Positions 4,390 through 17,122 of a stretch of DNA of 24,474 nt are shown here, one piece after another. Each line of letters starts with the position of its first letter. Position 1 is the stretch's first letter. Location: positions 1 to 24,474 of the IMG/VR virus record IMGVR_UViG_3300049728_000074, one strand, 5' to 3'. Both the position numbers and the translations under genes were made by a program. Source of the DNA: a virus. The notes under the pieces are model-generated. The model worked only from the letters and a program-made list of their open reading frames with translations, made no database searches and was not told the DNA's origin.

Positions 4390-5172
4390 CTAGTTAGTAA
4401 CCCCGAAGGCAATCCAACATATTCCAGTTGCTCCACTTCCAACAGCAACTACCGCCTGAGTAGGACCAACCGATTTAATTGTAGATGAACCGGAGCCACT
4501 AGTGCTATAATTGGCAGCCACAAATCCGGGGGTGCTTAAATATGCAGGAGTAAACGGAACTGTGATGTCGCTTGGACCAGAAGTCAGGCCTCCCTGAATC
4601 GTAAGATAGGTCACGACCGCCCCACCAGGGCTGGCAACGAATGTTAGGGGAATCTTGGCAACTACAATTGAGCCCGTATTAGTAACAATCGGGGCTGTGT
4701 TTGCTAAAACCCAGGCAGTGTTTGGTATCTGGTTCGAGTTAGCATACGCCGGAGGAGTAACAACAGTAGGAATGTCCGTCCCAGGACCAGCTGTAATCTG
4801 GGGTGACTGGATCCCCACCAAGGCCGGAAGTGTTAATGGTCCGGGACTCGTCGCAGGAATTCCTGCAATCGCCGCCACGATAGCAGCCTGCAGGGTGGTG
4901 TTAGGCTCCGATAGATTCGCTAAAATCAGCGGGGTGATCTCAGAGAAGGTCCCCCCAATATTATAAACCTTCCCAGTAGAGGAATCGATAAAAGGCGCCC
5001 CATAGAAGTTAGTCTCGAAGCCAAGAGCCTCCGCCGCTGCCACTGTCGTCCCCGAGAGATTGGCAACCCTCTGCGCAATATCATTCTTGAAATTCCTAAT
5101 ATCAAGCCCAAGCTGATTTGCTGCTTGAGTATCCGGTGGAAATGTGATGTCGTAAATTTCACTAAAGGCCAT
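4390..5172 (-). CDS. Tail fibre / tail-attachment protein
   Basis: 260 residues; the ATG overlaps the stop of the ATP-grasp gene by one base (TAATG), with GGAGAG about 9 bases upstream inside that gene. The N-terminus (PPDTQAANQLGLDIRNFKNDIAQR) matches the general pattern of short helical regions that anchor phage fibres to the tail. The middle (about 75-150) is Pro/Ala/Thr-rich. The C-terminal 110 residues are beta-rich, and the last about 50 are Gly/Ser-rich and end in GICWIAFGV, resembling the trimeric tips of phage fibres. Likely a virion surface protein. No catalytic motif seen. Confidence 0.7.
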   Translation of the reverse strand: MAFSEIYDITFPPDTQAANQLGLDIRNFKNDIAQRVANLSGTTVAAAEALGFETNFYGAPFIDSSTGKVYNIGGTFSEITPLILANLSEPNTTLQAAIVAAIAGIPATSPGPLTLPALVGIQSPQITAGPGTDIPTVVTPPAYANSNQIPNTAWVLANTAPIVTNTGSIVVAKIPLTFVASPGGAVVTYLTIQGGLTSGPSDITVPFTPAYLSTPGFVAANYSTSGSGSSTIKSVGPTQAVVAVGSGATGICWIAFGVTN

Positions 5173-6560
5173 TAGAGTAAGCTCTCCTCTTGTTCTTCAA
5201 TCCTGCCTCCAACGTCGGTACGATACTTCATCCCGCTTAGGTACAAATTGTCCTTGATGTATTCAATGAGATTCTTACGAACCTGTTTTATCGAGCTACC
5301 ATCCTGGCCGGTCACGGTGAGGAGGTAGCCATTCTTTGTCACTACCTTATAACAGGACTCGCCAGAACCTTCAGGTCCATTATCAACACTGTGCTCGAAA
5401 TTGTAGAGGTGAATATGCTCCCGCTGATCTTCGGAGAATCCCTCGGTAGAGGGTTGTCCATCCTTCGGATTCAGAATCCACAATCGCTCCCCCAACGAAG
5501 TTGCCTTCTCCTCAACGTCCATCTCGCAAGGGAATGGCTTTGCCACTACACACATTACCATTCCAATTCCCTCATGCAACTGGAGTCCTTCCGGTAGCGA
5601 AGTTCCCCTAGCACAAGCCTCAATCACCTCTGCCGGATCGCTCACCATCCCCTCGATCATTTCATACGAAGTGGCTGGAATTCCAAACCTCATCGTCGGC
5701 TCAAGCGCCACTATTCCCTTGGGGTCGTCCATATCCACAATACAGTTAATATCAAAAACCCCATGAAAACCAATATCGCGGAGCTTTTCCACGATTCCAG
5801 GTCTCCCGATAATAGAATTGAAAAGGCGATGGCTATCATTAGTGCCAATAAAGGTAGTCCCCATCTCACCGCAGGTCTCTCCGGTTCCACCATTCGCCTC
5901 CTTCTTCTCTTCAAAGTTTAGGTAGCCTGCTATTCTTCCATCTCCATCGCGAAGAAAATCACTGCCGTTAAAAAAAGCAGAAGCAGCAACTTCAAGCCCC
6001 TCGACCACCTCCATAAGATCGAAGTCAATCGGCCCGTACTCTTGAACATTCCAGCTTTTCTCCAGTTCATCCAAATGGAAGAGCATATCAATCCCACCGT
6101 CAAACTTTCCAAGATGGTTGATTGACTTCGGGGCATCCCCATTTTGCTTCATTATGTATCTCTTGCCATCGGAGGAATGCTTCTCGATGAACTTACGGGC
6201 AGACTGAAGGGAGGTAAAGTTCTTTGAGAACGGCTGTTTGAATCCAAGCTCTTTGAACCATTCCTGGTTTAGCTGCCTGTTATTCTCAAGCTCGTCCCCA
6301 TCTTCGCACCCACCAAACACCAACTCTCCCCGCGAGCGAAGCCAATCCTGCAAGCGGCCGAAGGTGCAGGAGTCGAAGACCCACACGAGGCCCTTTCCAA
6401 GGAAATCAAACCACTCCTCAGTATGGGTAACGATCCCCTTCCCAATCGACCGACTCGCCTTATCTTGGATGTACATGACCACATAGTGCTGACGCACGTT
6501 TGCCAGATAAGAGGCCAGATCGAGGGCCTCACCGAATTCGCTGTAGAAAATGAAGTCCAT
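5172..6560 (-). CDS. ATP-grasp enzyme, PurD-like, within the virion operon
   Basis: 462 residues; SD AGGGA upstream of the ATG. Residues 1-100 resemble a pre-ATP-grasp domain, ending in segments like LVWVFDSCTFGRLQDWLRSRG and a following Gly-Gly turn. A candidate ATP-binding lysine lies in RYIMKQNGD (about 135-141). Residues 185-240 (VEGLEVAASAFFNG, a Gly/Thr-rich loop, GEMGTTFIG) and 265-295 (FHGVFDINCIVD, then ALEPTMRFG) follow the layout of phosphoribosylamine-glycine ligase, where metal-binding Glu/Asn precede RFG; here the Asn position reads Thr. ATP-grasp enzymes join a carboxylate to an amine or similar nucleophile using ATP. No other purine gene is nearby; neighbours are lysozyme and fibre. 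It could be a diverged purine enzyme or a ligase modifying a virion or host component. Family fairly sure; substrate unknown. Confidence 0.75.
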   Translation of the reverse strand: MDFIFYSEFGEALDLASYLANVRQHYVVMYIQDKASRSIGKGIVTHTEEWFDFLGKGLVWVFDSCTFGRLQDWLRSRGELVFGGCEDGDELENNRQLNQEWFKELGFKQPFSKNFTSLQSARKFIEKHSSDGKRYIMKQNGDAPKSINHLGKFDGGIDMLFHLDELEKSWNVQEYGPIDFDLMEVVEGLEVAASAFFNGSDFLRDGDGRIAGYLNFEEKKEANGGTGETCGEMGTTFIGTNDSHRLFNSIIGRPGIVEKLRDIGFHGVFDINCIVDMDDPKGIVALEPTMRFGIPATSYEMIEGMVSDPAEVIEACARGTSLPEGLQLHEGIGMVMCVVAKPFPCEMDVEEKATSLGERLWILNPKDGQPSTEGFSEDQREHIHLYNFEHSVDNGPEGSGESCYKVVTKNGYLLTVTGQDGSSIKQVRKNLIEYIKDNLYLSGMKYRTDVGGRIEEQEESLL

Positions 6561-7248: not shown

Positions 7249-7632
7249 CTATAACTCAGTTACCGCCTTGTCATACTCTGCCCAATCAACTCCCAATCTC
7301 ATCGCCAGGACCGATTCAAGATCAGTTGCCACCAAATGCGCCTTGTGATAAGGTGCGAGAGGGGAGTCTCCTGGCTCACTAAAATCTCCCTCCCCTCTGG
7401 ACGCCTCATAGTCAATATCGAATCTATCAATCTCCTCGATTGAGATGCCTTGATGGGTGATCTGAAGATACTCAGCAAGCTCATGAAAAGCCACAAGTGC
7501 TTCATACCGCCAGTCTCCCATCTCACTCACCCTGATCTGGAGCTTTCCACTTTTAGGGTCAATCCAGTAATCACCAACAGTCGGATACCGCTGCTGATCA
7601 TGAGGAATCGTTTTGATTTCGATATTGAGCAT
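7249..7632 (-). CDS. Conserved phage-type protein with HExxE...H motif
   Basis: 127 residues, SD GGGAGATGG before the ATG. The core VAFHELAEYLQITHQGIS places His50, Glu51, Glu54 and His60 on a probable helix, and a later stretch SPLAPYHKAHLVATDLE adds two more His and a Glu. The pattern (HE..E, then D.FD, then PY..H..A...E) resembles a recurrent family of phage proteins of unknown function. The His/Glu/Asp spacing could bind a metal, but it is not the classical HExxH zincin motif. It may be a metallohydrolase or only a structural metal site. Confidence 0.65.
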   Translation of the reverse strand: MLNIEIKTIPHDQQRYPTVGDYWIDPKSGKLQIRVSEMGDWRYEALVAFHELAEYLQITHQGISIEEIDRFDIDYEASRGEGDFSEPGDSPLAPYHKAHLVATDLESVLAMRLGVDWAEYDKAVTEL

Positions 7633-7656
7633 TTTCCATCTCCCATGTCAGGCAGG

Positions 7657-8118
7657 TTAGGTTCCTGAAAGAGTCCCACCTGTATTCCCAAGGACATACC
7701 AAATTCCATTGTATGCCTCAAGGATAATGTAGTTTCCGATCGCAGCGGTAAACGTGATCACATTCTTCGACCCGTTGACATAGCCATGTCCCGCAGTTCC
7801 GACCGTAATCACGGCAGCCTGAGCAGTAGTCAGAAGGATCGTAAGAACCTTCCCATCATCTCCACCCTGCATGGTCTGCCCACCAAGACCAGTCGGAAAT
7901 TGGGTTGCCTGGGCAGTAGTTGGAACTGGAGAGCCGGCAATCGGGGGAGCCAGAGTGTAGGCTCCTGATGCGGTGTTGGCAAGAACCTGAAGTCCGCCAG
8001 GAGCCGCGGAGGGGAGTGAGGCATCAGAAGAAGTAATCGCTCCAATTGCTGCTGTGATCAGGGCTAAGACCTGATCCATAAATACCGACCTAACCCCTCT
8101 AAACGATGAAACTGCCAT
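7657..8118 (-). CDS. Virion protein, unknown, hydrophobic beta-rich
   Basis: 153 residues; AGGAG eight bases before the ATG. After a short helical N-terminus (VFMDQVLALITAAIGAI) the protein is Ala/Gly/Thr-rich and beta-prone, ending in a compact segment (NYIILEAYNGIWYVLGNTGG) like those in small phage head or tail decoration proteins. Upstream on the same strand lies the structured non-coding segment 8170-8306 plus two small hairpins (8131-8143 and about 8150-8164), so translation may be affected by RNA structure. Function not recognised. Confidence 0.65.
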   Translation of the reverse strand: MAVSSFRGVRSVFMDQVLALITAAIGAITSSDASLPSAAPGGLQVLANTASGAYTLAPPIAGSPVPTTAQATQFPTGLGGQTMQGGDDGKVLTILLTTAQAAVITVGTAGHGYVNGSKNVITFTAAIGNYIILEAYNGIWYVLGNTGGTLSGT

Positions 8119-8169
8119 CTCAATTCTCCTGCGCCCTCGGCGCCATCATCTCCTCCAAAGGAGGGTTAA

Positions 8170-8306
8170 AATCGTGTCACTAGCCCTGATCGGGCACCTA
8201 CCTACTTGGCGGCGGTAAGACTAGGTACCCAGAATCAGGTCCGACGGGTGAGCCTGATTGCCAAAACCCAGACCCCACCGCAATTGATGGGGCTTATGAC
8301 ACGATT
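8170..8306 (-). ncRNA. Candidate structured RNA element closed by a 10-bp stem
   Basis: The spacer has no supported gene but folds strikingly. Positions 8170-8179 are the exact reverse complement of 8297-8306. On the minus strand the helix continues through a U-G pair and one A-A mismatch into five more pairs (8182-8186 with 8290-8294). Enclosed are a 6-bp hairpin (8199-8204/8222-8227), a perfect 7-bp hairpin (8233-8239/8253-8259), and two hairpins that would compete with the inner part of the closing stem (8183-8186/8192-8195 and 8273-8277/8288-8292). The loops of the 6-bp hairpin (GCGG, 8212-8215) and of the last one (CCGC, 8278-8281) are complementary. The wobble pair favours minus-strand RNA, co-directional with the genes. 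The helix begins at the stop codon of the upstream gene. I do not recognise a known RNA class; it could be a cis-regulator, a processing or stability element, or a free RNA. Confidence 0.55.
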
Positions 8307-8562
8307 ATGGAATAGGTGGTTCCGGTTCATTCGTGCTCCCTCGGAGTTTTTCTGCTACCTGCGCCTCTTCTGGGCTATCAGTAAGGGCGTCTTGGATCTG
8401 GGTGGTGCGTGCCCATGCCTGTGGATTATCCCAGCACTTAGGGCAGAGTAAGAGTCCATTCTGCCAGGTAAGCTGGGAAATCCTAGTCTCGCAGTCGCAC
8501 CTCTGACAGCGATGCCAGGGGTCACCCATGATAGCGGAATGTCTGCGATAACCCCTTGACAC
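8305..8562 (-). CDS. Zinc-ribbon-like small phage protein
   Basis: 85 residues from a GTG preceded by AAGGGG at suitable distance; the internal ATG at 8529 has no SD. Two Cys pairs, CQRC (19-22) and CPKC (40-43), flank a segment with ..L.W..GLL, followed by Trp and a Pro/Glu-rich tail. This 'HRC..C......L..Q/W.GL.LC..CW' layout is common in small phage proteins encoded near capsid genes and is expected to bind one zinc. Its exact role in the virion is not known. The stop codon lies in the first helix strand of the downstream structured element. Confidence 0.75.
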   Translation of the reverse strand: MSRGYRRHSAIMGDPWHRCQRCDCETRISQLTWQNGLLLCPKCWDNPQAWARTTQIQDALTDSPEEAQVAEKLRGSTNEPEPPIP

Positions 8563-8572
8563 TTTGATCCCC

Positions 8573-8884
8573 TTACTTTACGACGGTCTGAGCAGTCTGA
8601 GCGACCTGAGTAGACTGAGCAGTCTGAACCGTAACGCCATCCTTTGCCTTAGTCTTGTCTGTAGATGAGGCCGAGGCCACAGTCTCTGCCGGACTCGCAA
8701 TCTGCGGAGCCACGTTACCAAACTGACTCTGATGGCTCGCGCCGATAGCCACCGCACTCGCCTTAGTTTCCTGGTAGGACTGCCAGTGGCACTTAGTGCA
8801 GGTGAACTTCCATCTATACGCAGGCAGATTCATTGGAAACTCTTCTACCGTTCCAACGTGCTCTGATACTTGATCTATTGCCAT
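8573..8884 (-). CDS. Small protein with one CxxC pair and Gln/Thr/Ala-rich tail
   Basis: 103 residues from the ATG at 8884; the frame stays open upstream to a GTG at 8902, and the best SD (GGAGG, 8902-8906) is too close for the GTG and rather far (17 bases) for the ATG, so the start is uncertain. The N-terminal half contains WKFTCTKCHW, a single Cys pair with flanking aromatics. The C-terminal half is low complexity with repeated TAQ/TQ units (QTAQSTQVAQTAQT), probably unstructured. It follows the capsid gene after a terminator-like double hairpin, so it may be expressed less than the capsid protein. Function unknown. Confidence 0.6.
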   Translation of the reverse strand: MAIDQVSEHVGTVEEFPMNLPAYRWKFTCTKCHWQSYQETKASAVAIGASHQSQFGNVAPQIASPAETVASASSTDKTKAKDGVTVQTAQSTQVAQTAQTVVK

Positions 8885-8940
8885 CTCATTGCTCGATTCC
8901 ACCTCCCCCAGAAAGGGAAGGTATTGTTCACAGCGGAAAC

Positions 8941-8990
8941 AATTAAAAGAATAAATCCAAAGGATTAGGAGAGGGAGGGTTTCCCCTCCC
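8941..8990 (-). terminator. Double-hairpin terminator or attenuator after the capsid gene
   Basis: On the minus strand a perfect 7-bp stem GGGAGGG/CCCTCCC closed by a GAAA tetraloop (8973-8990) is followed by a second hairpin AATCC-TTT-GGATT (8954-8966) and then TATTCTTTT. Placement just after the major capsid gene matches the usual phage arrangement in which partial termination raises capsid over downstream products. The U-run is interrupted, so read-through is likely. Confidence 0.6.
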
Positions 8991-9005
8991 CCACTACCCT
9001 AATCT

Positions 9006-9977
9006 CTACGGTCCGTTACTCCCCCAGGTTCCGATCCAATGGAATGCCCCGACTCCATACCGTTCCATCGTTACCTGCTTGATGGACATGGTATCGAAGT
9101 CATCCGAGAACATCTCGTCAATCGGCTCACGAGTGATATGCTTGAGGGAATGCTCGCTCTTGTCAGCCAGCAAATACCAAGCCGACAGGCTGGGAGAATA
9201 AGAATAGGAGAAGTAATCCAGGTTCTCATTCAGCAGGCTGTTGACTTCGTTATCCGCCGTGTAGGGCTTATGCGGAGAGCCGAGAATTTCCCTGGCAATC
9301 CAGATAAGTTCCGGCGGAATCAGCAGAGTCCGAGGGCGGACCTTGATCGGCATTCCAACTCCATCCGGCATCCTGCGAAAGTTATTCAGGGCAAGCTGGA
9401 GTGCGGTGAAGGAAAGATCAACGTCGGTGGCAGGTCGATTCGGCCACGTACCGGGGGAGGTGTAGTACGAAGATGCCCCAGGAGCAATGGCAGTAGCCTC
9501 GGAGCCTCCGGGTAGGTTATGTGCCGTGTTGAACAGGTTGTTCCCATCCACCGTCACATAGCTATTCAGAATGTTCGTGCTCGACGTGAATCCTAGGTTG
9601 ATAACTCCCCAGGTATTGACCTCACGAGCAAACTGGGCACTACGCGCCAGCGCGGATGGAATCTTCTTTACCAACCCATACATATCATCTTTGTAGAGTT
9701 CGTAAGAAGAGCGCACGCCGAGTGCGTAGGTAAACATCTGGAACCGTTTCGTTCCGCCCTGCGCTGCGTCACGATATGTCGTCGGCTCGCCTTCGGGTTT
9801 CTGCACCAGCGGACCCACACCAACAAACTCGGCCTCATCCTCAAACGCCCGATCAGATGATTCCTTGTTAAAGATGTGAGGCCATTCCTCATCCTTCTGG
9901 TGCAACTTCTCCCATTGCACAAAGAGACCATGCAATCCGGGAGCTTGTAGCTGCGAAAATTGACCACGTACCTGCAT
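9006..9977 (-). CDS. Major capsid protein (HK97-fold type)
   Basis: 323 residues with a strong SD (AAGGAGGAG) close to the ATG. The N-terminal region (LFVQWEKLHQKDEEWPHIFNK) and the following segment (KRFQMFTYALGVRSSYELYKDD) resemble Mu gpT-like and related HK97-fold capsid proteins. The middle has an asparagine-rich beta region (NLFNTAHNLPGG) and a helix, then RPRTLLIPPELIWIAREILGS, a typical phage capsid segment, and a C-terminal EMFSDDFDTMSIKQVTMERYGVGAFHW beta region. No delta-domain or protease was identified. It would form the icosahedral head shell. Strong SD, size and position between scaffold-like and minor virion genes support the call. Confidence 0.85.
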   Translation of the reverse strand: MQVRGQFSQLQAPGLHGLFVQWEKLHQKDEEWPHIFNKESSDRAFEDEAEFVGVGPLVQKPEGEPTTYRDAAQGGTKRFQMFTYALGVRSSYELYKDDMYGLVKKIPSALARSAQFAREVNTWGVINLGFTSSTNILNSYVTVDGNNLFNTAHNLPGGSEATAIAPGASSYYTSPGTWPNRPATDVDLSFTALQLALNNFRRMPDGVGMPIKVRPRTLLIPPELIWIAREILGSPHKPYTADNEVNSLLNENLDYFSYSYSPSLSAWYLLADKSEHSLKHITREPIDEMFSDDFDTMSIKQVTMERYGVGAFHWIGTWGSNGP

Positions 9978-11824: not shown

Positions 11825-12097
11825 TTATTTTCCAACCCTCTTCGAGTTCGAGTTCGAGGGTGGTTGTTTCTGAACCACAATCCGATCTAGGACGGACGGC
11901 AGTTCGAGAATCTTATCAATCCTGCGGAGTTCACCAGCCAACCCGCAAAGCAAATTTGGATCAGTGGTCTGACTGATTCTATCAATCAGGGAATCACGAT
12001 CAGCCCGAAGGTAATCAAAGAACTTCTTAGTTATGAAATTCTTTGCCCACGAAGCTGCAGCCTCTGGCTGCTCGATCAGTGTGTCGAGGTTGGTCAT
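11825..12097 (-). CDS. Small helical protein downstream of portal, unknown
   Basis: 90 residues; the ATG overlaps the portal stop codon by one base (TAATG) and GGAGG lies just upstream inside the portal gene, so it is probably translationally coupled. The sequence is helical and charged (FDYLRADRDSLIDRISQTTDP and LAGELRRIDKILELPSVLDRI) with a short basic, Asn/Ser-rich tail. A minor head or assembly role is likely from context. Family not recognised. Confidence 0.65.
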   Translation of the reverse strand: MTNLDTLIEQPEAAASWAKNFITKKFFDYLRADRDSLIDRISQTTDPNLLCGLAGELRRIDKILELPSVLDRIVVQKQPPSNSNSKRVGK

Positions 12098-14019
12098 TAT
12101 CTACCTCCACCTTGCTGTCCGCCCTGACCAGCCGCCAAGAGCTGCTGCAAGGCAGGAGGCAAGCCGTCCAGACCCTGCGCCTGGGACTGCTGAGGCTGCC
12201 CCCCACCTTGCTGTTGATCACCAGGAGCAGCAGGCGATCCCGCTTGCGGGGGCTGCTGAGACGGCAACTCAACATCTGTTACAAATCTTTCAGTCTCATC
12301 GTAGCCGAAGTGCTTGAACACCAGCTTCATTAGGGTGTTGGAGTTCTCAATCGCACCGTAGAGGTATTTTTTCTGCTCTGTCGGGGCAAATTGATTTCCA
12401 GCTGCCTGTAACATCTGTCCAATCATCTGGTGATGCTTCTGCATTACCCCAGTCAACATCAAGTCTGACTGCTTCTCAACCTCCCGATTAACAGAGGCAG
12501 TTGCCGCGGCGATTGGGAGGCAGAGGGTATTCCCACGAATCGCCTCGAATGCCTTATCTATATTCTCTTTATCCCCACCAAACTGACTCGATCTTCCACC
12601 AGTGCCAAACTCCGCATACAACTTCGACAGGAGCCTCCCAAGTTTGGTATGAGCGTACCTAATGTCGGTGACGTTGAGATCAGTCCTAGTATTCCCCTCC
12701 TGCAACAGGGAGAGGGTTCCCATCGAAGAATAAACTCCCCGTTTAGACATCGTGCCAGAGCCCATACCCTGCATGGGTGCGCTAACGCCGCTTCGCTTTT
12801 CTGCAAGCTCAAGGGTGAGCCGCTCTGCGTCGATGGTCATTGGAGAGGGCTGCCCTGCCTGCAAAGCCTCTAGCTCATCCTTCTGGGCAGGGATCATTGC
12901 CGATGGGAAGAGTCGATAGCCCTTGTTCAAAAGGGAATCGTTCCCTACCCTCCATACCACAGTATTCGAAACGGTCATGTTGTCGCCGCGACCGTTATGA
13001 ATCTGAGAAAGCTCCTCTTGGAAGGTGGCTAAGGTTTCGCAGAACCCGTATCCGTAGAAGTAATCATCCCGATAGAACAGGCGATTTGCTATAAAGATTT
13101 CTTCGGGGTAGTAGTTGTAGTAGGCCCGGAGAATCTTGTTATTGAGCAGATTGTACCAAACAATGCACTTTGCAAACCTGCCCCGCTGAATTCTGTATTT
13201 AAAATGGCACTCATATACGTGGTATTCTTCATACAAGCCATCGTTAGACGGACTGACGCCGGCATCGCTGAGCTGAGTAGTAGTGACTTGATCAGGAGCA
13301 GTGGAATCAGGATGCCCGATTATCGAACGCACCGCCTCCTTATCATAAGTCCCCCTCCACCCGAGTTCCTCAAGAGCCTGTCTGGAGGTGTAGCGAATTC
13401 GGTGGGCCTTAAAATCAGCCATCTCGATTGTCTTAAAGGTCGGGTCCATGAAGAAGTCATTGAAGGGGAGCTTCTCCGGCCTCGGACCTTCATACGAGAT
13501 CGTGGGATAAAAACCACCAAGCGATCCGTCGCTTGCGGCGTAAGGAATATCTTCCTTTACCACCACGTGCGGACACTTCAAGATCGAAGTTCCGAGCTTG
13601 ATTCCTTCACCCAACCACTCGTGGTAAACTCGGTAAAGGTCAAGCTCGGAAGGTTCCATGCCTACATAATTCATGAACTCTTCATAGGCAAGTTTATAAT
13701 CCATCGCCTCCTTGGGATGCTTCCCGATCAGGCGGGATGCCCACAACGGCGATGTCTTAAAAATCGCCGCCATAACCCTCGCCAGGAGTGTGTCAGCATG
13801 AATGGCAATAATCGGAACTACAAGATTGGATGCTCCATGCCAGGGGAACTCGCGGATAGTCTCAGCGGGGACTGCCTCATAGGCGCGGCGCCACAGCGGC
13901 AGTCGAGTCTCATGAAGCTCCGCTAGAGAGAACTTCAAAGACCGTAGCTTCTTCCCTAAAAAGCGGCAGAGCCTCTCCTGTCCATCCCCTGACATCCCGA
14001 GTTTGATTGGCTGGATCAT
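12097..14019 (-). CDS. Portal protein
   Basis: 640 residues. The N-terminal half contains FPWHGASNLVVPIIAIHADTLLAR and PFNDFFMDPTFKTIEMADFKAHR, a pattern characteristic of portal proteins of P22-like and related podoviruses. Later segments (FYRDDYFYGYGFCETLATFQEELSQIHN and the helical ASVNREVEKQSDLMLTGVM region) fit the stem and wing of the portal. The last about 70 residues are Gln/Gly/Pro-rich and low complexity. The portal forms the dodecameric DNA gate at one head vertex and binds the terminase. Start at the ATG just after the stop of the 61-residue gene. Order terminase, portal, scaffold-like, capsid supports the call. Confidence 0.88.
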   Translation of the reverse strand: MIQPIKLGMSGDGQERLCRFLGKKLRSLKFSLAELHETRLPLWRRAYEAVPAETIREFPWHGASNLVVPIIAIHADTLLARVMAAIFKTSPLWASRLIGKHPKEAMDYKLAYEEFMNYVGMEPSELDLYRVYHEWLGEGIKLGTSILKCPHVVVKEDIPYAASDGSLGGFYPTISYEGPRPEKLPFNDFFMDPTFKTIEMADFKAHRIRYTSRQALEELGWRGTYDKEAVRSIIGHPDSTAPDQVTTTQLSDAGVSPSNDGLYEEYHVYECHFKYRIQRGRFAKCIVWYNLLNNKILRAYYNYYPEEIFIANRLFYRDDYFYGYGFCETLATFQEELSQIHNGRGDNMTVSNTVVWRVGNDSLLNKGYRLFPSAMIPAQKDELEALQAGQPSPMTIDAERLTLELAEKRSGVSAPMQGMGSGTMSKRGVYSSMGTLSLLQEGNTRTDLNVTDIRYAHTKLGRLLSKLYAEFGTGGRSSQFGGDKENIDKAFEAIRGNTLCLPIAAATASVNREVEKQSDLMLTGVMQKHHQMIGQMLQAAGNQFAPTEQKKYLYGAIENSNTLMKLVFKHFGYDETERFVTDVELPSQQPPQAGSPAAPGDQQQGGGQPQQSQAQGLDGLPPALQQLLAAGQGGQQGGGR

Positions 14020-14888: not shown

Positions 14889-15389
14889 CTACGCCGTCTG
14901 TGCAACAGTAAAGCTGGTGATGTCCGACGGAGGAGCGGCTACGATGGTGAAGGCAGCCGATCCGGTAGCAGCCGTCCCGTCAGCATTCGTATAGCTGATC
15001 GACAGGGTTACTGAGGTTCCAACAACCGCAGTCGCAGGAATCGCCACCGTCGCCACAAGCCCCGTAGGGTCAATGACAATCGGAGCATTCAACGGATCGC
15101 TCGTGGTCCAGGTGGGAGGATTCCCAGTCGCTGGCAAAGTTCCCGCCGGAACTGGAGTCGCAGTAAATACTGGGCTATTGCCCGGAGACAGTGGTAACAT
15201 TGTAGTACCCCCTTGTTGCTTGATGATGAAGCTGGTTATTGTAGGTTGTGTCAACTCGACAAGCAGCATGTTTTGAATTGCCAGGACTGCTTCCGATAAT
15301 CTGGCAAGAGACCTCTCAATCAAATCAAGGTGTCTTTCTACATACCGCCCAAATTCTTTTTCTTCCTTATTCTCACCAAACAGTCTCAT
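14889..15389 (-). CDS. Protein with helical N-terminus and Ig-like domain
   Basis: 166 residues from the ATG at 15389, whose first base overlaps the terminase stop (TAATG); the longer frame to 15593 lies inside the terminase gene. Residues 1-45 are charged and helical (EFGRYVERHLDLIERSLARLSEAVLAIQNML), suited to oligomerisation. Residues about 60-150 have the pattern of bacterial Ig-like domains (GTLPATGNPPTWTTSDP, then GLVATVAIPATAVVGTSVTLSISYTNADGTA). Such domains often decorate phage capsids or fibres and bind surface sugars weakly. It may be a head-decoration or surface-display protein encoded next to the packaging genes. Confidence 0.65.
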   Translation of the reverse strand: MRLFGENKEEKEFGRYVERHLDLIERSLARLSEAVLAIQNMLLVELTQPTITSFIIKQQGGTTMLPLSPGNSPVFTATPVPAGTLPATGNPPTWTTSDPLNAPIVIDPTGLVATVAIPATAVVGTSVTLSISYTNADGTAATGSAAFTIVAAPPSDITSFTVAQTA

Positions 15390-17122
15390 TAGTATCCTCT
15401 TCCTGAAAACATAGAACGAAGTTGAGCAGAACGGTGAGAGCCAGGACCACCCTGTGAAATCAGGTTGGAATAAGGCTGAGCTATTTGTTTCTGTTGTAAC
15501 TGATTCATCCTTAAAAACTTGGCGTCGGCAACCTTGTTCGTAGGATTTCGAAGAATCTGCGGGATATAGGCAGTCGCGTCGATCTGGTCGCAATACTTCC
15601 CCCTGGGGAAGGTGACTATCTCATTGAGATAATCCTGCTGTTTCCGCCTCATGAAGAATCGCCCAAACTCGATAATCGGTCCTAGGGTGTTCCGAATGCG
15701 CCATTCCTTCTTCGTGGTGATCTCGCCGTCCGGCCCCTCAACTTCCCCTTTCAACGGGATGATTCTGAGCTTATTCGGTTTGACGGTATTGAGGTACGTA
15801 AAATGAGGGAGTGCCAGCGATTGCCCTGCACAAGTTTCAAACCCTACTCCAGTAACATGCCACCTGGCTGCAATCTCATAGATTTTGTTGAAGAAGGTCT
15901 CGTGGCTGGAAGCCTCTGCCCAGCTTTCGAGCAGATAGTAATTGTTATCTTGAGACATCCCAAGGACAACAATTGCATGGCGACAGCGACCTGTTGCGGT
16001 GTGAGTGGGATCGCACGCAATAACAACGTCGAGTTTTCTATAGTGTAGATCGGGTCGGATAATACCATTCTTAGCCTCATGCCGAATCATCAGGCTGCCT
16101 TCAGCAGAGTCGGAGACTTTGTAGAAGTCATACCAGTTTATATCCGATTCGTTGAACTCGGCATCCTCTGGGGCACAGGGATTATTTAAGTACTGGCAGC
16201 TAAAGAGGTAGTTACCGTAGCGTTCCTTAAGGGTCAGAAGCTTTTCTACCGACCATTCCTCTGGAAATATCGGGGTGTCGATTGGATGGGCAGGGCAGCA
16301 GCCCCCCATCGCCGAGTGGGACTGGATATTAAAATGCTCATGCTCCCGGATGTGGGAGTTGAGGTCCCGATATCCCCACCGATTCCCAATAACGAGTTCG
16401 TCGCCTTCGTGATCGGCATCTGTACTGTCGTAAAGAGAGGAGACCAGCTTGTGGTACTCGATCGTCTTCTCCATCACCGAGACAGATTCAATTGCCTTCC
16501 TGCCAACAAGATCATCCTGGATAATCAGTCCGTTATAATGGCGAGACTGAGTAGCTCCACCAACTCCGATAAAGTCAAAGGTTCCTTCCCCGTGAGGTGG
16601 CGCTCCATCAGGAGGGCGAACCTGCAAGCTAAAGTCTGTCCACCTTTGATTTGGGCCCGGGAGGGTTTCCGGGAAGAGCGTCCGGTAGATGTCATTGGAC
16701 TCATAATGCCGCCTGATCTTTGACCCGAGCTTTGCTGCATTTGTAATGTTCTCAGAGACCAGGAGATTTCTCTTGGTACAATCATGCATCCTCAGCATAT
16801 GCCGGATGAACTCATCATCATAGCCGAGAGCCTGAAAGTCGTCAATGTCTCGTGTCGCCAGGGGTAGGACTCGCCACATCGGCATCCCCTCACCAGAGCA
16901 GGTGCTCTTGAAGTGATCACGAGGCATTTCAATCACGTCATGGAGGTGGTCGCATTCCATCGAACGACAGAATGGCAGGTGGAGACTTTCAGTCAAGCGC
17001 CTCCGCTTGAGGGCGATCTTGATAAAGTAGTAGAGAGAACCGAGCGAATTCAACCGATGCATCCTCAGCATGGTTACAGGGTCCATGTCTTGAGTGATCG
17101 GGATTGGCTCGAAGTATTTCAC
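15389..17122 (-). CDS. Terminase large subunit
   Basis: 577 residues from a GTG at 17122 (no strong SD; no better start nearby). The ATPase half has a degenerate Walker A-like loop EMPRDHFKST (about 65-73) and a Walker B-like LIIQDD (about 199-204), with Asp in place of the usual catalytic Glu after the first Asp. The nuclease half shows VIACDPTHT (Asp371), GFETCAGQ (Glu429) and CDQIDATAY (Asp512/Asp515), the expected acidic residues of the RNase H-like terminase nuclease. The enzyme pumps DNA through the portal and cuts concatemers. The small subunit gene lies immediately upstream. The C-terminal tail is Gln/Ser/Gly-rich. Confidence 0.9.
   Translation of the reverse strand: MKYFEPIPITQDMDPVTMLRMHRLNSLGSLYYFIKIALKRRRLTESLHLPFCRSMECDHLHDVIEMPRDHFKSTCSGEGMPMWRVLPLATRDIDDFQALGYDDEFIRHMLRMHDCTKRNLLVSENITNAAKLGSKIRRHYESNDIYRTLFPETLPGPNQRWTDFSLQVRPPDGAPPHGEGTFDFIGVGGATQSRHYNGLIIQDDLVGRKAIESVSVMEKTIEYHKLVSSLYDSTDADHEGDELVIGNRWGYRDLNSHIREHEHFNIQSHSAMGGCCPAHPIDTPIFPEEWSVEKLLTLKERYGNYLFSCQYLNNPCAPEDAEFNESDINWYDFYKVSDSAEGSLMIRHEAKNGIIRPDLHYRKLDVVIACDPTHTATGRCRHAIVVLGMSQDNNYYLLESWAEASSHETFFNKIYEIAARWHVTGVGFETCAGQSLALPHFTYLNTVKPNKLRIIPLKGEVEGPDGEITTKKEWRIRNTLGPIIEFGRFFMRRKQQDYLNEIVTFPRGKYCDQIDATAYIPQILRNPTNKVADAKFLRMNQLQQKQIAQPYSNLISQGGPGSHRSAQLRSMFSGRGY

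Follow-up and report, generated by a model that had tools for sequence, protein, structure and literature searches.

The locus examined here raises the question of what occupies a 137-nt spacer between two virion genes of an uncultured soil-type phage, and what it does there. The window, by which we mean the whole stretch of DNA analysed (a 24.5-kb virus contig of 24,474 nt), carries its virion genes on the minus strand (Table 1). The initial annotation had proposed a possible undescribed structured RNA in the spacer, which lies between the p85 and p153 genes, a proposal that is supported by sense-strand folding, by conservation, by the lack of an Rfam match and by covarying structured RNAs at this position in related phages; structured non-coding RNAs are rarely described in the virion operons of tailed phages. 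Beyond p153, the operon continues with p127, p95, an endolysin-like protein and others. On the capsid side of the spacer, homologues of p85 were present in 71 of the first 84 loci, with C19, C22, C40 and C43 invariant, and comparison with Pfam gave sub-threshold matches only. Most members of this phage group keep the protein close to their capsid gene; it has no assigned role.

Table 1. Features of the window, in window coordinates and listed in operon order.
Feature	Position	Strand	Remark
Large terminase	15389-17122	-	PHROG 38 large-subunit type
Portal-type protein	12097-14019	-	
Major capsid protein gene	9006..9977	-	PHROG major head protein
p109	8573-8902	-	
p85, 85-aa four-cysteine zinc-ribbon-like protein	8305..8562	-	Conserved upstream neighbour of the slot (homologue comparison)
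Type C structured RNA, 137 nt, virion-operon sense	8170..8306	-	First base within p85 TAA stop codon
Closing helix, 5' arm AAUCGUGUCAU	8296..8306	-	Pair probability 0.93-1.0, terminal pair 0.54
5' hairpin GCCCCAUC/GGUGGGGU	8272..8293	-	Two allele differences here
Possible pseudoknot stem 1, 5' strand UGGGU	8266..8270	-	Predicted by descriptor search
Possible pseudoknot stem 2, 5' strand AAUCAGG	8253..8259	-	Predicted by descriptor search
Possible pseudoknot stem 1, 3' strand ACCCG	8245..8249	-	Predicted by descriptor search
CCUGAUU, possible pseudoknot stem 2, 3' strand, or outer part of 3' hairpin	8233..8239	-	
3' hairpin	8192..8230	-	Apical loop holds the other two allele differences
Closing helix, 3' arm GUGACACGAUU	8170..8180	-	Pair probability 0.93-1.0, terminal pair 0.54
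p153, next gene after the RNA	7657..8118	-	

The spacer is a real structured RNA. Folded against dinucleotide-shuffled controls, a check suggested along with the original proposal, the minus strand of positions 8150-8320 reached -70.6 kcal/mol compared with -52.3 +/- 4.1 kcal/mol for the shuffles (z = -4.43), and none of 200 shuffles was as low. The exact 137 nt gave z scores of -4.8 in the sense and -3.5 in the antisense direction, and the only other known allele (L008) gave -5.8 and -3.2, respectively. A conserved reading frame would have spoken for protein instead; every minus-strand frame across the spacer is broken by stops and the sole open plus-strand frame is antisense to p85, so that a coding spacer was rejected.

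Read in operon sense, the predicted fold is bounded by an 11-bp closing helix, within which a 5' hairpin is followed by a weak hairpin in the middle and a long one on the 3' side. The perfect 10-bp closing pair AATCGTGTCA/TGACACGATT is as first described, and its extension to 16 pairs on the minus strand runs through a U-G pair, one A-A mismatch and five more pairs. The inner hairpin at 8273-8292 also exists, with pair probabilities of 0.5-0.95; a second one, at 8183-8195, is possible, but its bases pair mostly elsewhere. A kissing interaction between GCGG and CCGC can form in the window but is lost in L008 (ACCGCCGCC to ACCATCGCC), and kissing loops are therefore unsupported. The two alternative partners noted for CCTGAT/ATCAGG are present (8185 and 8253, each with 8234). 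In the 137-nt RNA, AAUCAGG (8253..8259) competes with 8191-8185 for CCUGAUU (8233..8239), whose hairpin-fold probability is 0.77-0.93 in a model that leaves pseudoknots out. In both alleles, the fold with the 16-bp closing helix is 1.3 kcal/mol less stable than the best one, and the inner part of that helix has a pair probability of about 0.3. Such near-equal predicted folds are compatible with two conformations and are not evidence of regulation.

The two alleles, which we refer to as type C, are identical at 133 of 137 positions (97.1%, or 2.9% different), compared with differences of 31% and 36% at the four-fold degenerate sites of p85 and p153 in the same two genomes. Their closing helices are identical. 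Two of the four differences fall in the stem of the 5' hairpin, where both pairs are preserved (U-G to C-G and C-G to U-G); the other two lie in the loop at the tip of the 3' hairpin. Over its last 100 nt (window 8305-8400 versus L008), p85 is 99% identical, far above the remainder of that gene, so recent recombination could explain part of the conservation of the RNA; the tract at about 8150-8400 may reflect either recombination or an RNA-level constraint that extends into p85. Because the two alleles are nearly identical, the type C fold remains a modelled structure that has no covariation support of its own. A model of type C, the RNA carried by records L005 and L001, gave one match per phage record and none elsewhere among 49 records. 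The nearest sister phage by capsid protein (L010, 96% identical) lacks the RNA and has in its place a 35-nt spacer with a short hairpin, which indicates that the type C RNA is not essential.

Comparison with related phages shows that the position itself is recurrently occupied. Queries with the capsid protein and p85 returned more than 200 loci, many of which overlap as parts of the same contigs. Within this clade, p85 is followed by a short spacer of 5-73 nt, which lacks an RNA, or by a long one of 85-214 nt. Long spacers are of three recurring kinds, those with type A (spacer length 85-171 nt), type B (170-214 nt) and type C (184-186 nt), and a few are assigned to none of these. Among related phages, one genomic slot thus accommodates three or more different structured RNAs, and the search at the same locus proposed in the initial annotation brought to light extensive covariation in types A and B. 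The gene family in the p153 position varies among the phages with an RNA in the slot.

The 22 members of type A form an imperfect hairpin of roughly 58-81 nt, in which a helix of about 10 bp (mostly GGUGCC..GGCACC) encloses a CUCCUUU strand and a GGGGCUG apical loop. In its closing helix, 211 of 220 cells are paired, whereas exchanging the partner strands gives 161 on average and 185 at most, and positions 3 to 6 each show three or four Watson-Crick types. The sense fold is stabler than the antisense fold in 21 of the 22. On the capsid tree the carriers form one clade, in which all 22 have the hairpin. A search for type A by a loose DNA pattern was abandoned, as chance matches swamp the members listed. 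The window RNA is not of this type: the type A model has no match in L005 or L001, and GGGGCUG is absent from type C. Three further loci (L209, L142 and L166) have long post-p85 spacers with closed hairpins, some with a GGGCUG loop, that fall beyond the type A model and are probably type A-like outliers. In two others (L159, after 4741; L033, after 3773), a LAGLIDADG-like ORF (WLAGFFDGEG) follows p85 and the slot has no RNA. By eye, a linker composed of UAGU, a hairpin and GCRACCC AAGGAGGGUU precedes the next start codon in many loci, with or without type A (e.g. L174:1177-1217 and L163:5397-5440), and would place the ribosome site in a hairpin.

Type B has eight members (L012, L058, L144, L151, L176, L372, L387 and L404). 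It follows p85 in five of them (L012, L058, L151 and L176, with L144 more diverged), and the last three, located by pattern scan, are outside the p85 clade. Its architecture is a closing helix of 9-18 bp round a double-pseudoknot core. Stem 1 is CGGGA/UCCCG, and stem 2 is different in each member (UACGGU/ACCGUA, UGGGGC/GCCCCA, UCGGCUC/GAGUCGA, CUCCA/UGGAG, GCUAG/CUAGC, UCGUAG/CUACGA, AUGGU/ACCAU and AGGUGG/CCACUU). A third pair, CCYRUU/AAUYRGG, crosses stem 2 and covaries (CCCG/CGGG, CCUA/UAGG, CCCA/UGGG); the consensus reads CGGGAGAU / CCCGUCCYRUUGCA / AAUYRGGU. With helices picked by eye or by best score per sequence, which favours pairing, stem 2 has 40 of 40 cells paired in the eight sequences (permuted maximum 35) and the outer closing helix 72 of 72 (permuted maximum 60). 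The closing helix flanks all eight cores at similar distances; that of L404, taken alone, is within chance (55 of 300 shuffles).

The three members outside the clade occur in differing neighbourhoods. In a prophage-like region of a Chloroflexi MAG (L404), with an integrase and a primase-like gene nearby, the closing helix begins 20 nt beyond the stop codon of a Phage_capsid gene, a capsid family unrelated to that of the window. In L372 the RNA lies between two tRNA genes of a phage contig. In a bacterial MAG of candidate division B38 (L387:7695-7790, at about L407:9700) it stands upstream of UPF0758 and N6 DNA methylase genes, with an 18-bp closing helix that contains CGCCCGCCTTTT. Type B therefore appears to travel independently of its neighbours, p85 included. 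Scans of 400 genomes from the same phylum as the Chloroflexi MAG, and of 396 from that of an Acidobacteriaceae MAG, each returned just one genome, already known to carry it, and comparison with cultured phages gave chance-level pieces only. Type B is thus a covariation-supported double pseudoknot without an Rfam entry that also occurs after a capsid gene of a second family, beside phage tRNA genes and in a bacterial MAG. This gives a defined RNA class, with members of a length that allows transcription, probing and deletion.

Some details of individual type B loci deserve mention. In L012, a 9-bp helix AACGGGACG/CGTCCCGTT was considered as the closing helix and rejected, since its 3' strand belongs to the type B core and the true helix lies elsewhere around that core. 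At L012:5875-6003 the p85 stop-codon bases AACGGGACG are perfectly complementary to the conserved core strand CGUCCCGUU, and the RNA there could thus be masked by an alternative fold. Directly after the type B RNA of L404 (4160-4215), a second candidate H-type pseudoknot, GGGGCUAG/CUAGCCCC interleaved with GUUUGG/CCAAAC, was noted by eye.

The nearest relative of the window with an RNA in the slot, L012 (capsid 69% identical), carries type B, and type C shows the type B order of closing helix, 5' hairpin, a possible H-type pseudoknot of interleaved stems, and 3' hairpin. For both reasons, type C may plausibly be a diverged form of type B, judging from the sequences. The type C closing helix, at 11 bp, compares with 9-18 bp in all eight type B members, and the candidate interleaved stems of type C are UGGGU/ACCCG and AAUCAGG/CCUGAUU. 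A descriptor of the B-like order was found in both type C alleles and none of 300 shuffles scored as high, with ranges that were widened post hoc and a nested fold that competes; about 2% of shuffles contain any B-like arrangement by the same descriptor. It found L012 and missed three of the four type B members tried. Up to E = 1, the type B model matched neither the window nor the L005 and L001 records, and the type B consensus, including its most conserved strand, CCYRUUGCA, is absent from type C. Given the widened ranges, the missed members, the unmatched model and the absence of CCYRUUGCA, type C was not filed under type B. A broader reading would make types A, B and C versions of one undescribed phage RNA class, with the window RNA a fast-diverging member, a fixed slot after capsid-side genes in several lineages, a long closing helix round a pseudoknotted core, and a novel role in late infection or head assembly; we advance it only tentatively and think it rather unlikely as a whole.

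No described family in the searched libraries corresponds, by sequence or structure model, to type A, B or C. Rfam 15 gave no match at the gathering threshold in the window or 13 related loci, nothing at E up to 10 over the 137-nt RNA, and nothing over type B in L372, L387 and L404, where the only matches were to tRNAs elsewhere. No tRNA or tmRNA was found in the window, and type C has no direct similarity to cultured phages. The three models each give one match per phage record, besides antisense echoes and weak chance-level matches. Searches of openly licensed papers turned up no description of A, B or C, which may have been described elsewhere. Among known systems, GOLLD and ROOL are large ornate phage RNAs of several hundred nucleotides that form cages (PMC12286853). 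Like the RNAs of this slot, they are phage-borne and structured, with covariation (here in types A and B), have no assigned function and often lie near tRNA genes (PMC12286853), as does type B in L372. In contrast, A, B and C measure about 60-190 nt, sit mostly in the slot after capsid-side genes and are without an Rfam match.

We consider it an even prospect that the 137-nt spacer is a small RNA gene lying within the late capsid transcript and acting as RNA late in infection. In this scheme, the slot between the capsid-side genes (capsid, p109 and p85) and the next virion gene would hold an RNA gene transcribed together with the capsid genes; no promoter-like signal exceeds chance near the RNA in the virion cluster, which makes joint synthesis with the capsid mRNA probable. 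Processing would then release the RNA, whose ends the long closing helix would protect, and it would accumulate late in infection and act in trans or on virion mRNA. This reading is supported by sense folding, conservation, single copy, clean absence in the sister phage and replacement by other RNAs in the slot. The main competitor, for which we see a real if clearly smaller chance, is a cis element only, a fold that would set the highly expressed capsid mRNA apart from the virion genes downstream of it, through attenuation, as a processing site or by 3'-end protection. It would account for the fixed position right after p85 in the clade, for the fixation of the type A hairpin and for the variable family of the next gene, and T runs do occur a few bases past some closing helices (L012, L387; GATTTTAA in the window). 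However, a terminator scan of 7600-9100 (GC-rich hairpin followed directly by a T run) found 2 candidates against 1.2 expected, which is chance level; type B turns up between tRNA genes of a phage and in a bacterial MAG lacking such an operon, and its conserved unpaired bases and double pseudoknot exceed the needs of a stability hairpin. Because type B moves between neighbourhoods with its own closing helix, an embedded RNA gene is likelier than a purely cis element. This argument is carried to type C by analogy, through their common slot.

More specific functions seem improbable. A riboswitch-like switch between two exclusive folds, as the initial annotation proposed, would suit the alternative partners of CCUGAU and the small energy gap to the extended closing helix in both alleles; yet near-equal folds of this kind are common in stable RNAs, nothing covaries with the switch, the downstream gene differs between phages, and the type B RNA of the tRNA island is outside any evident 5' UTR, so that we regard a switch as unlikely. 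A self-cleaving ribozyme in the late transcript, HDV-like or new, appears equally doubtful. Gut phages carry HDV-like theta ribozymes, partly near tRNA genes (PMC10879173), and these are, like type B, compact pseudoknots in phage genomes (PMC10879173); the double pseudoknot of the type B core is compact and includes conserved unpaired bases, and the L372 copy is flanked by tRNA genes. Type B differs in having conserved helices upstream of stem 1 and the CCYRUU/AAUYRGG pair crossing stem 2, in lacking a P4 hairpin between the 3' strands of stems 1 and 2, and in not being directly tRNA-adjacent; the Rfam ribozyme models have no match, and type C lacks the conserved bases of type B. The packaging RNA (pRNA) of phage phi29 is a phage RNA closed by a long helix, similar in size to the window RNA, and an RNA part of head assembly or packaging would fit an element that follows capsid genes in two unrelated capsid families. 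The window RNA differs from pRNA in its terminase type, in lacking conserved kissing loops (L008 does not retain the only candidate pair, GCGG/CCGC) and in its place in the virion operon; PHROG 38-type terminases are not known to need an RNA, and sister phages lack the element, which makes such a role very improbable. Least credible is a MITE-like small inserted DNA element. Its terminal inverted repeats (10 bp perfect, 17 bp imperfect) and clean absence from L010 would fit; the sense strand folds better than the antisense strand, both arms occur at that spacing in this clade only, no target-site duplication was seen, and the single genomic copy led to its rejection.

Two further observations concern other parts of the window. 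A 462-aa protein of the virion operon (5172-6560) has weak, sub-threshold similarity to ATP-grasp (GARS) proteins. Between 18001 and 19000, the GC content drops to 0.43 where gene orientation switches from minus to plus, a possible early/late boundary.
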